DNA of 64,000 bases, taken from the NCBI RefSeq assembly GCF_000166135.1, contig NC_014666.1, positions 1,116,001 to 1,180,000 on the forward strand, read 5' to 3'. This DNA is from Pseudofrankia inefficax. GTDB lineage: Bacteria; Actinomycetota; Actinomycetes; Frankiales; Frankiaceae. Within the stretch, counting starts at the first letter, position 1; every line of letters begins with the position of its first letter. This document shows, piece by piece, positions 4,456 to 45,357 of this stretch. The position numbers and the translations under genes are program-made. A model generated the notes under the pieces. It saw only the letters and a program-made list of their open reading frames with translations. It did not search any database and was not told the origin of the DNA.

Positions 4456-5160
4456 CTAGTCGGCGAGTGATGTCTCGGCCGTGGAGACTGCGATCATTGT
4501 TTGTAGCCAGCGGTGTGCCGTGACACTGGCGGCTTTGTTTCGAGCGGCTTGCTGTGCCTTTCTCAACGCCTGAGAATGGGCCAGTCCCTGCGATTTCTCG
4601 CGCTCGTAGACGGCTTTCTCGTGATCGTCGAGGTGGCGCTCGCATCCGGATGCCCATCGCCCTTCGATGCTCTGCACACGGTTGCGGCACGGCAGACCTG
4701 TTTGCGTCTCTTTACCGCACTGTGGCCGCTCCCCTTCTGGCAGGGGTGGCAGCGGCGGTGGCGAGATATCCTGCGGCCCGATCTGTGCGGCTGGATCGGG
4801 TCGTCCGAGGCGGTAGACGATATAGTCGTCGCACGGTTCGGGACGTGAGCCGGAAGCCATTGCTTCTGTGCGTCTCGCGAGAATCACGTGAGCTTCGGTC
4901 GCCGACGCGACTGCGCGGGGCGGGGCTAACTCCACTCCGGCCGCGGACACGGCGAGTGCCTCATGCGCGGCGCGGGCCTGGTCAAGAACCGGCCAGAAGC
5001 TTTGCTGTAGACGGCTGAACCGGAGGCCGGTGGTTGCTTCGAGGTGTTGGACGATGTCGCTTGATTCGGCGAGCAACGTGCGGAGCAGGACGATCAGGCG
5101 GTTCGCGTCGTCCCGGGTGCGGTCATCGTCGCTTTGGTCTACCGACGTATCTGTGGTCAT
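4456..5160 (-). CDS. Hypothetical protein with Cys/His zinc-site candidate
   Basis: 234 residues. The N-terminal half is acidic and helical (DANRLIVLLRTLLAESSDIV and following). Around residues 145-178 a Cys-x8-Cys (CGKETQTGLPC) followed by GCERH suggests a metal-binding site. A proline-rich linker (PPPLPPLPEGE) precedes it and a charged, alanine-rich helix (HSQALRKAQQAARNKAAS) follows. The start lies 84 bp downstream of the small membrane-protein gene at 5245-5439 on the same strand, suggesting one transcript behind the conserved leader hairpin. Function not recognised. Confidence 0.6.
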   Translation of the reverse strand: MTTDTSVDQSDDDRTRDDANRLIVLLRTLLAESSDIVQHLEATTGLRFSRLQQSFWPVLDQARAAHEALAVSAAGVELAPPRAVASATEAHVILARRTEAMASGSRPEPCDDYIVYRLGRPDPAAQIGPQDISPPPLPPLPEGERPQCGKETQTGLPCRNRVQSIEGRWASGCERHLDDHEKAVYEREKSQGLAHSQALRKAQQAARNKAASVTAHRWLQTMIAVSTAETSLAD

Positions 5161-5244: not shown

Positions 5245-5439
5245 CTACAGAATCCCCACCGCCGCGAGCACACCGAGCGCCAGGCCCAGCGCGCCGCCGA
5301 ACGCAGCCCCGCCGCGCAGGACGGCGGCAGGCAGGCTTGGAGCCATCGCGCGGCTGAGAATGCCAGCCACCAGAGCAACGATAACGGCCGTTGTCGCGCT
5401 CAGCGCGACAACGAGCACCTTCAGAAGAACTGTGTTCAC
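5245..5439 (-). CDS. Small membrane protein (64 aa)
   Basis: 64 residues from a GTG start, mostly hydrophobic, with two predicted membrane segments (about residues 5-27 and 42-63) joined by SRAMAPSLPAAVLRGG. A second gene of the same size and layout lies at 14068-14268; both begin MN, end in a hydrophobic helix and share a GGAAF turn. Their upstream DNA is far more alike than their coding DNA, including a hairpin placed exactly 40 nt before each GTG. First gene of a likely operon with 4456-5160. Unknown function. Confidence 0.6.
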   Translation of the reverse strand: MNTVLLKVLVVALSATTAVIVALVAGILSRAMAPSLPAAVLRGGAAFGGALGLALGVLAAVGIL

Positions 5440-5506
5440 GTCTATTCCCGCCCGGCGCCCCGTCCCCTGGCCCGGCGGGGCGCTGGAGGCAGCGCGAAGC
5501 GGACCC
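5434..5506 (-). promoter_or_regulatory. Conserved leader hairpin, copy 1
   Basis: About 70 nt overlapping and upstream of the GTG start resemble 14263-14334. The identical core is 26 nt and includes GCGCTG-GAGG-CAGCGC (5480-5495), a perfect 6-bp stem with a 4-nt loop. In the mRNA sense the loop is CCUC, complementary to a Shine-Dalgarno GAGG. Confidence 0.6.
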
Positions 5507-5624
5507 TACGATTTCCGGGAGCTGCGCTGCGGAGAAGGCGACTGAGAGGGAAGTGAGAGTGAGAGTGAGATGCGTGGCGGGTCGAGTGTGTGTGGCGACG
5601 GGCCCGGCGCGGCCAGGACCCGCT

Positions 5625-14067: not shown

Positions 14068-14268
14068 TTACAGCAAGCCCAGCTTCTCGGCGACCGTCAG
14101 CGTGACCGGCAGTACGAGGACGAACGCGGCGCCGCCCGCGAGGAACGCGGCCACGAGGTCGGCGCCACCGGCGTAGGCAAGGACGCCGGCCGTCTGGCCG
14201 CCGAGGGCAGCGAGCGCCGCGCACAACCCGACGGCGAGGACGCGCACGAGGACACGATCGGGGTTCAC
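14068..14268 (-). CDS. Small membrane protein (66 aa), paralogue-like of 5245-5439
   Basis: 66 residues from GTG 14268 with GGAG seven bases upstream. Two hydrophobic segments (about residues 6-26 and 38-58) with AYAGGADLVAAFLAGGAAF between them, ending EKLGLL. Its size, MN start and topology match the 64-residue protein at 5245. The leader upstream shares a 26-nt identical core at the same spacing. No operon partner lies close by; the next gene downstream on this strand is the ankyrin protein 460 bp on. Function unknown. Confidence 0.55.
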   Translation of the reverse strand: MNPDRVLVRVLAVGLCAALAALGGQTAGVLAYAGGADLVAAFLAGGAAFVLVLPVTLTVAEKLGLL

Positions 14269-14334
14269 GTCTGGCTCCAGTCGTGCGCCCCGCCCCCTGG
14301 CCGGCGGAGCGCTGGAGGCAGCGCGAAGCGGACC
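14263..14334 (-). promoter_or_regulatory. Conserved leader hairpin, copy 2
   Basis: The hairpin GCGCTG-GAGG-CAGCGC lies at 14309-14324, 40 nt before the GTG at 14268, exactly as in copy 1 (5480-5495 before 5439). Similarity runs from the start codon through gcgaagcggacc. Confidence 0.6.
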
Positions 14335-32488: not shown

Positions 32489-34458
32489 TCGATCCCGGTG
32501 AGCTGTCCCGGGCGGCCGATCCCGGCCGTCCGGGGCTCGGCCCGGCGAGCCGGGCGACGGATCCGGCGCGTCCGGCGCTGTCGGACCTGGCGGTGTCGCC
32601 GTTCGCGTTGCCGATGGCCTTGTTGGAGCGGGAGGTCCGGGTCGCGTTCGCGGGGCGGACCTCGACCGAGGAGCAGCAGGACCCCCGCCAGTCGCTGATC
32701 CGCCAGCTCGGCCGGGCGAAGTCCGCGCTGCCGGAGACGTGGGTGATCGTCGCGCACTACTACGACGTCGAGTCCGGCCGCAAGGATCTCGAACAGCGGG
32801 GCCATGGGGCGGACGTGTCGCGGTTCGACATCCCGATCCCCCGGGACGGCGGCATCGATGATCTTCTCGCGGAGGCTTCGCATCCGAACCGCCGGTTCGA
32901 TGTGGTGATCTGTGAGTCGATGTCGCGGATCGCCCGGCGGATGTACGAGACGCTCGCGATCGAGCGCCAGCTCGAAGCGGCCGGCGTCGCGCTGTTGGCG
33001 TGGAACGAGCCGATCAAGACCGACGGTCCGCGGGCGTCCGCGATCCTGCATCGGCGGATCAACCAGTCGGTCGCCGAGTACGAGGTCTGGCAGACCCTCG
33101 AAAGCTCGTGGGGTGGGCTGTGCACCCACGTCCGGGACGGCTGGAACATCGGGAAACCGCCCTACGGCTACCGGGCGAAGAGCGTGCGGCATCCGAACTC
33201 GGCGAAAGCGGACCGGGGGGCGACCAAGTCGCGGCTGGAACCGGACGGGGCGCGCGGGGAGACCGTCACGCAGATCGCCCACTGGCGTTACTACCGCAAG
33301 CTCGGCTACGGGGCGATCGCCGAGGCGCTCAACGCCGACCTCGAACGCTACCCACCCCCCGAACCGGTCGGCGGGGCCCACCGCGCCCGGGGTGCCTGGG
33401 GGAAGTCGACCGTCGCGGACCTGTTGCGCAACCCGAAGTACACCGGCTACCAGGTGTTCAACCGCCGCGCCAGCCGGTCACGGCACGGCGCGGTCAACGG
33501 GCCGGAGAAATGGGTGTGGTCCGAGCAGCCCGTCCACGAACCGCTGATCCCGAAGTGGATGTTCGACGAGTTCAACGCCCACCGCACCGAGCGGCGCGGC
33601 TCCCGCCAGACCAACACGCTGAACAGCCACCCCGCGACGAAGCGGACCTATGTGTTCCGGGGCATGGTCCACTGCACCTGTGGACGGCGGATGGCCGGGA
33701 ACGTCCGCGAACCCGGCGCACCGGTCTGGTACATCTGCTGGCCCAAGGCGAACAACCGAGGCCGCGACGACAAACTCGACCAGCACCCGAAGACCGTCCG
33801 CATCCGCGAGGACGTCCTGGAGAAAGCGATCGGGGAGTTTTACGCCGAACGGGTCTTCGGCCGCAGCCGGATCACCCTGCTCACCGCGGAACTGGCGTCC
33901 TACGACGACCGCGCCGCCAACGAGCGTGCCGCCGAACGCGGCCGGCTCCAGAAGAAGATCGACGACCTGACGCGCCGGCAGGCCAACCTGCTGCGCCAAG
34001 CCCAGGACGGCGACCCCGACGACCCGTTCACCCAAGGGCTACGCGCCACGTACAACGACCTCGACGCGGAACGCAAGGTCACCCTCGCGAAGATCCAAGA
34101 ACTAGACGAGGCCGACGACGCCGAACCCGAACGGCCCGGACCCGACAACCTCCAACTCCTCGACGCCCTACCGGAACTCGCCCTCAAGCTCCACCAGGCA
34201 CCCGAAGCGTTGCAACGACGCCTCTACGAGATCACCCAACTCACCGTCCAACTCGATCACGAAAGGCAGGAAGTCAAGATGATGATCAAAATACCGGCCG
34301 TCGACCTCGACCAGGTCGCAACCCTCGCGGAAGGAGCCGCCAAGCCCCCCGCGCGCACGGCACCCACAAGAACTCTCTCTCGCGTGGATGCTGTACGTGC
34401 CCCCGGCAGGATTCGAACCTGCGCACCTGCCTCCGGAGGGCAGTGCTCTATCCCCTGA
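32485..34458 (+). CDS. Large serine recombinase (integrase)
   Basis: 657 residues. Catalyses site-specific strand exchange through a serine nucleophile. Resolvase domain from about residue 50: VRVAFAGRTSTEEQQDPRQS (Arg58, Ser60 as nucleophile candidate), CESMSRIARRMYE. The recombinase domain (YGYRAK, YYRKLGYGAIAEALNAD, WGKSTVADLLRNPKYTGYQV) follows, then a zinc-ribbon-like part (MVHCTCGRRMAG, WYICWPKAN) and a coiled coil at about 475-550. The last 20 residues are encoded by the antisense of tRNA-Arg (34398-34469), so the gene ends inside the presumed attachment site. Most tRNA-targeting integrases are tyrosine enzymes, so this arrangement is unusual. Confidence 0.93.
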   Translation: MIDPGELSRAADPGRPGLGPASRATDPARPALSDLAVSPFALPMALLEREVRVAFAGRTSTEEQQDPRQSLIRQLGRAKSALPETWVIVAHYYDVESGRKDLEQRGHGADVSRFDIPIPRDGGIDDLLAEASHPNRRFDVVICESMSRIARRMYETLAIERQLEAAGVALLAWNEPIKTDGPRASAILHRRINQSVAEYEVWQTLESSWGGLCTHVRDGWNIGKPPYGYRAKSVRHPNSAKADRGATKSRLEPDGARGETVTQIAHWRYYRKLGYGAIAEALNADLERYPPPEPVGGAHRARGAWGKSTVADLLRNPKYTGYQVFNRRASRSRHGAVNGPEKWVWSEQPVHEPLIPKWMFDEFNAHRTERRGSRQTNTLNSHPATKRTYVFRGMVHCTCGRRMAGNVREPGAPVWYICWPKANNRGRDDKLDQHPKTVRIREDVLEKAIGEFYAERVFGRSRITLLTAELASYDDRAANERAAERGRLQKKIDDLTRRQANLLRQAQDGDPDDPFTQGLRATYNDLDAERKVTLAKIQELDEADDAEPERPGPDNLQLLDALPELALKLHQAPEALQRRLYEITQLTVQLDHERQEVKMMIKIPAVDLDQVATLAEGAAKPPARTAPTRTLSRVDAVRAPGRIRTCAPASGGQCSIP

Positions 34459-34469
34459 GCTACGGGGGC
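34398..34469 (-). tRNA. tRNA-Arg (anticodon CCG)
   Basis: The minus strand folds as a 72-nt cloverleaf: acceptor GCCCCCG/CGGGGGC with discriminator A, D arm GCTC-AGGGGATA-GAGC, anticodon arm CTGCC-CTCCGGA-GGCAG (anticodon CCG, reading CGG), 4-nt variable loop, T arm GCAGG-TTCGAAT-CCTGC. No CCA is encoded. Its 3' end faces the serine recombinase and the island. Confidence 0.97.
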
Positions 34470-45195: not shown

Positions 45196-45357
45196 ACTAG
45201 GACGCGGGAGGCCGGTGTTACAGGGCTGGCGGCGGGCCGTGGGCGCGCCGTTGGCTCGGTCGAAGGTCTGGCAGACTTGGGCTGGTAACAGGCTCCGGTT
45301 CACGCCGTGGCGACACGCGACGGCGACCCGGCGGCCAACGTGAGAAGAGGGACCACC

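Follow-up and report, generated by a model that had tools for sequence, protein, structure and literature searches.

Two genes for small membrane proteins, P1 and P2, in Pseudofrankia inefficax are each preceded by a conserved stretch whose best reading, judging from sequence, is that of a cis-acting translational-occlusion leader of a small hydrophobic protein. The 5′ arm of the leader (UUCGCG CUG CCUCCA) is predicted to form base pairs with its own mRNA at the Shine-Dalgarno region and at the GUG start codon, and we consider it reasonably probable that the full-length mRNA would be poorly translated by default. The P1 and P2 messages would then probably stay silent until something opens them. 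This reading draws on comparison, namely on conservation, on RNA folding and the pairing of the start codon, on a small number of compensatory changes, and on a second class of leader (class B) that has the same layout as the first (class A, to which P1 and P2 belong). Unless a genome is named, positions refer to the window, i.e., the whole stretch of 64,000 nucleotides that was analysed, and "Frankiaceae" denotes the family to which the genome collection assigns the window.

Table 1. Positions of the two genes, their predicted leader elements, and the class B leaders.
Feature	Position	Strand	Basis
P1, 64-aa two-helix membrane protein, GTG start	5245..5439	-	translation
P2, 66-aa two-helix membrane protein, GTG start	14068..14268	-	translation
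P1 leader hairpin (predicted), class A; 5′ arm UUCGCGCUGCCUCCAGCGCCCCGCC, 3′ arm with Shine-Dalgarno region and GUGAA	5435..5498	-	RNA folds, alignment, pair table
P2 leader hairpin (predicted); UUCGCGCUG.CUCCA-GCGCUCCGCC / GGCGGGGCGC-UGGAG.CAG.CGUGAA, over Shine-Dalgarno and start codon	14264..14327	-	RNA folds, pair table
P2 Shine-Dalgarno GGAG, paired to CUCC of the 5′ arm	14275..14278	-	pair table
16-nt hairpin, P1 copy; within the 5′ arm of the longer hairpin, weaker alternative fold	5480..5495	+	search, constrained fold
16-nt hairpin, P2 copy; within the 5′ arm, weaker alternative fold	14309..14324	+	search, constrained fold
TAGGGT, putative -10-like hexamer 4 nt upstream of the P1 5′ arm	5503..5508	-	alignment, promoter scoring, interpretation
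CAAGGT, putative -10-like hexamer, same place before P2	14332..14337	-	alignment, promoter scoring, interpretation
Class B leader L145	G000:C1:2561706-2561788		survey of family members
Class B leader	G032 C78:7893-7979		
Class B leader	G033 C191:29084-29171		
Class B leader	G019 C12:24998-25079		

P1 and P2 share 39% identity across 41 residues, and each has two hydrophobic segments, with hydropathy maxima of 2.1–3.2 in both halves. They belong to a family of proteins of 60–70 aa with two hydrophobic segments (consensus approximately VALVAGIL-R-DGASLPAAVLRGGAAFGGAL), whose profile P2 matches with an E-value of 3e-18. The profile has matches in 16 of 34 Frankiaceae genomes, at up to seven copies per genome, and the family also occurs in Streptomyces and other actinobacteria; family matches recorded for P1 fall in 12 of 35 Frankiaceae genomes. 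Neither P1 nor P2 had a match above the curated cut-off in Pfam, NCBIfam, PHROGs or PADLOC, weak single-member matches came from Pfam only and none from PHROGs or PADLOC, and a plasmid tblastn search and a viral-contig scan gave no matches. No shared neighbours of family members were found, the genes stand alone, and a function derived from operons or neighbours was dropped because the neighbours are not shared. P1 is followed on its own strand, after 84 nt, by a 234-aa open reading frame (4456–5160, minus strand), which may be cotranscribed with it; no relative of this frame was found among the compared loci. We think it most likely that these are membrane-active proteins whose production is kept under tight control.

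An earlier note on this DNA had reported a 26-mer (GCGCTGGAGGCAGCGCGAAGCGGACC) repeated 40 nt before the GTG of both genes, and this was borne out: with up to three mismatches tolerated, the 8,815,781-bp genome contains exactly two copies, both 40 nt from the GTG (at 5439 for P1 and 14268 for P2), and the reversed 26-mer, used as a control, has no occurrence in it. The 16-nt palindrome GCGCTGGAGGCAGCGC matches without mismatch at its two sites, and all further matches in the window have three mismatches, which is the chance level. That the leader is better conserved than the coding part also held, though not the proposed extent of 26 nt, as the alignment of P1 and P2 is largely identical over ~75 nt from the -10-like hexamer through codon 2. 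Between P2 and its ortholog in genome G033, the leader differs at one of 75 positions, outside the hairpin, and the coding sequence at 11 of 198; the leader is conserved more strongly than the coding sequence, and the 150 bp upstream of P2 are likewise conserved.

Such a block might instead be a DNA promoter or operator bound by a regulator, with the hairpin being incidental, a reading that we regard as possible but unlikely. It would account for conservation that begins at a -10-like hexamer (TAGGGT, CAAGGT or CAGGGT, 4 nt before the arm in class A) and takes in the 150 bp upstream of P2, and for a 9-mer, GCGAAGCGG, found close to where transcription presumably starts, on one strand in class A and on the other in class B. 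An operator, however, does not need conservation that continues through the Shine-Dalgarno sequence to codon 2 and tracks pairing, and class B has the same layout with another sequence and with pair-preserving changes. No -35 element was recognised before P1 or P2 by promoter scoring. The 9-mer itself (window positions 5494–5502 and 14323–14331; GCGTAGCGG in some cases, with a related GAAGCGAAG in G033b and G009a) has a frequency of 8 per 400 kb, and it is a possible regulator site shared by classes A and B.

In RNA folding, a hairpin of ~64 nt is predicted (5′ UUCGCGCUG-CUCCA / UGGAG-CAG-CGUGAA 3′), with the 26-mer accounting for the greater part of its 5′ arm and with a 3′ arm that contains the Shine-Dalgarno GGAG, the start codon and the first bases of codon 2. 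When the mRNA strands of P2 and its relatives are folded, the 5′ arm UUCGCGCUGcCUCCA-GCGCYCCGCC pairs with GGCGGGGCGC-UGGAGcCAGaCGUGAA; the corresponding region of P1 is divergent at the Shine-Dalgarno sequence (GGCGGGAA), where its pairing is less perfect, with start-codon pairing retained. Folding z-scores were -2.45 and -1.12 for two stretches of the P2 leader, while the P1 leader had no advantage over shuffled sequence (z = 0.06 and 0.55), which weighs against the hairpin there, and at a GC content of 75% stable hairpins are common in any case. For the class A alignment, the consensus folding energy is lower than in shuffled alignments (z -2.0 to -2.4). Compared with a background of 148 genes with a Shine-Dalgarno sequence, taken from 20 regions scattered across this genome, in which the median pairing of the start codon with an upstream arm is 0.09, the class A leaders reach 0.83–0.99 and rank in the top 0.7–4% (an earlier background of 81 genes had put start-codon pairing in the top 0–1%).

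A Shine-Dalgarno sequence is also hidden by RNA thermometers and by riboswitches, and thermometers such as ROSE and fourU hold it together with the start codon in one hairpin, as is predicted here. Control of the small proteins by a thermometer or a metabolite riboswitch nevertheless seems hardly likely at all. The apical loop GGCCAG is largely conserved across class A, as might be expected of such a device, but the hairpins, at -36 to -45 kcal/mol, are too stable to melt over the growth range, the stem being much more stable than those of ROSE and fourU, with a GC content of ~75% and no U-run facing the Shine-Dalgarno sequence. A conserved multi-helix core and a match in Rfam are both absent.

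In proposing a cis-acting RNA leader of a small-membrane-protein family, the earlier note agrees with what is now the best reading; the 16-nt hairpin that it took as the element is probably not the functional unit. We judge it very improbable that GCGCUG-CCUC-CAGCGC acts as the element, with its loop binding ribosomal or other RNA. Its stem is perfect in P1, P2 and G033, and five pairs are kept in G032 despite a 2-nt insertion. Forcing it, however, costs 4–8 kcal/mol relative to the long hairpin (-32.0 versus -36.0 kcal/mol in P1 and -35.5 versus -40.6 kcal/mol in P2), and in the most distant leader, that of G010, the GCGCTG/CAGCGC stem is lost while the longer hairpin is largely kept. Nor do its stem pairs covary: the five inner pairs are identical in the four close copies. 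The idea that CCUC pairs with a ribosome site survives in kind, as the partner of CUCCA in P2, G032 and G033 is a UGGAG within the same mRNA; this pairing is imperfect in G010, and P1 uses other pairs.

The alignment of class A consists of four leaders (P1, P2, G032 and G033), in which 95.8% of 24 pairs are kept, against 26–53% when the partners are slid. One pair, 11-75, joins a leader base to a base of codon 2 and is U-A in P1, P2 and G033 and A-U in G032 and G010; in G032, the leader change from T to A accompanies a change of codon 2 from Asn (AAC) to Tyr (TAC). The remaining varying pairs are G-C/G-U, U-A/U-G and C-G/U-G. Because the observed covariation was matched by 132 of 500 column shuffles, it is suggestive only, resting as it does on one double change among what are effectively three to four independent leaders.

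The same leader architecture is seen in three Frankiaceae species. Covariance models searched against 35 Frankiaceae genomes returned the training sites and three extra places (E<=1e-3 in one or other model). As the earlier note had expected, the matches at this threshold are not scattered: five precede two-helix reading frames, among them a match on contig 759 of G010 before a 102-aa frame that is weakly related to the family. The other two extra matches, L095 (G000:C1:7853082-7853155) and L094 (G033 C212:114134-114207), are an orthologous pair with a class A leader and no intact gene: they are 93% homologous up to right behind the leader's start codon, with different sequence beyond in each. 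Since L094 runs ~30 nt into a family-like coding start (19–21 of 30 identities), the locus is read as a truncated gene, and a mobile-element or recombination site was rejected. This type of leader precedes four clear members of the family and the weakly related G010 frame; most members carry other leaders.

It is improbable, in our view, that P1 and P2, 9 kb apart, share a leader merely freshly copied by recent duplication or gene conversion. The two paralogs are neighbours, the rearranged region that contains them is syntenic with contig 221 of G033, and the homology of G000 and G033 at the remnant site ends right behind the leader. Yet the leader is also found in G032 and, more diverged, in G010, which is of another genus, the G033 ortholog of P2 keeps it unchanged, and copying does not explain the pair-preserving differences.

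Occlusion of the start by the leader gains further support from class B, a second, unrelated leader found upstream of further members of this unnamed family. A 10-bp helix, CGGGCGCCGC/GCGGUGCCUG, 95% paired, runs across the GUG start; behind the arm comes an internal hairpin, with AAGGAG between it and the start helix. The consensus fold is better than that of 300 of 300 shuffled alignments (z -4.0), and the internal hairpin has two double changes (C-G to A-U and G-C to C-G). All four leaders have a sigma-70-type promoter (TTGACG/TTGTCA-N17-18-TAGGAA/TATGAG) that ends 5–6 nt before the arm, which should place the arm at the transcript's 5′ end (approximately +1). A model built from these four gave no further matches in the 35 genomes. 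Start-codon pairing is 0.90–1.00 in three of them (top 0.7–1.4% of the background) and 0.68 in G019, a comparison that is partly selected because class B was noticed through start pairing itself; what supports class B independently is the position of its promoter and its covariation. Trans-pairing between the 5′ ends of class A and class B mRNAs was rejected, since 24% of random genomic 24-mers reach the energy of the 24-nt duplex and within genomes the A/T change in GCGWAGCGG shows no co-variation.

Start occlusion is not a family-wide rule. There is no excess of start-codon pairing in the remaining 25 Frankiaceae members (p 0.2) or in 15 from other actinobacteria (p 0.7), and a family-wide signal of p 0.0016 against 81 genes fell to p 0.03 with 148 genes and more members; because nothing was left of it outside the leader classes, the claim for the whole family was given up. 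Two other upstream regions were seen in the family. A further leader type lies ~40–75 nt before the ATG of a family gene in L011, L020 and L023 (G031, G000 and G033), with a hairpin CAGATGC..GCATCTG versus CCGATGCAC..GTGCATCGG and an apparent compensatory change from A-U to C-G. L009, L010 and L013 (G010, G029 and G030) have a common upstream region with repeated GTTCCGG motifs and proteins starting MYTDPMT, which may be another conserved control region.

Rfam gave no match at gathering score in the region and none at E<=1 in the class A and B loci, apart from one spurious microRNA match elsewhere; other matches across the window are unrelated. These include an L31-Actinobacteria ribosomal protein leader (45289–45336, plus strand), and the window also contains a tRNA (34398–34469, minus strand). 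Ribosomal-protein leaders such as that of L31 are likewise cis-acting, precede a gene and conserve structure; unlike them, neither P1 nor P2 encodes an RNA-binding protein able to feed back on its leader, and no Rfam model matches.

A closer likeness in layout is to type I toxin mRNAs (hok, tisB, zorO, aapA, timP), although we do not claim membership. These too encode a small hydrophobic protein and hide the ribosome binding site with an anti-Shine-Dalgarno stretch of their own mRNA, as is predicted here, and their loci are stand-alone genes, in several copies per genome, without conserved neighbours. Occlusion of the ribosome binding site in the primary transcript has been called a hallmark of type I loci (PMC6733600), in which the nascent mRNA is inactive and processing or rearrangement activates it (PMC11228461). 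Type I toxins mostly have one hydrophobic segment and fewer than 60 aa (PMC8309996), and the P1/P2 family differs from most of them in its two segments and 60–70 aa; a two-helix candidate is MsoT1 (PMC12390103). No sigma-70-like promoter for an antisense RNA was found at eight loci, by a scoring that class A sense promoters also escape and that detects actinobacterial promoters poorly. It would be tempting to see an actinobacterial type I toxin-like family in which unrelated, convergently built 5′ arms cover the Shine-Dalgarno sequence and/or the start codon and are opened by 5′ processing or by an unseen RNA, but we hold such a reading to be rather unlikely.

We propose that the conserved stretch would be the 5′ untranslated leader of both small-protein mRNAs, and that the 5′ end of the transcript would fold over the start as one long GC-rich hairpin, leaving the full-length mRNA silent. 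The hairpin might be opened by trimming of the 5′ end, by an RNA or protein partner, or by way of a metastable fold that forms while the mRNA is transcribed and may involve the 16-nt hairpin. Inferred in this scheme are the position of the arm at the extreme 5′ end of the transcript, the repression of translation, its release once the arm is removed or outcompeted, and the purpose of the arrangement. Two different leaders with one layout before the same kind of protein suggest that it matters to the cell that these proteins are not translated. The comparison yields two cis-acting RNA leaders that are not catalogued and a family of actinobacterial small membrane proteins that is widespread and has no name. 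Reports of type I systems come from Proteobacteria, Firmicutes and Tenericutes, and Cyanobacteria have candidates (PMC12390103). Should the P1/P2 family prove toxic, RNA-silenced hydrophobic toxins would extend to a phylum absent from the type I literature cited here.
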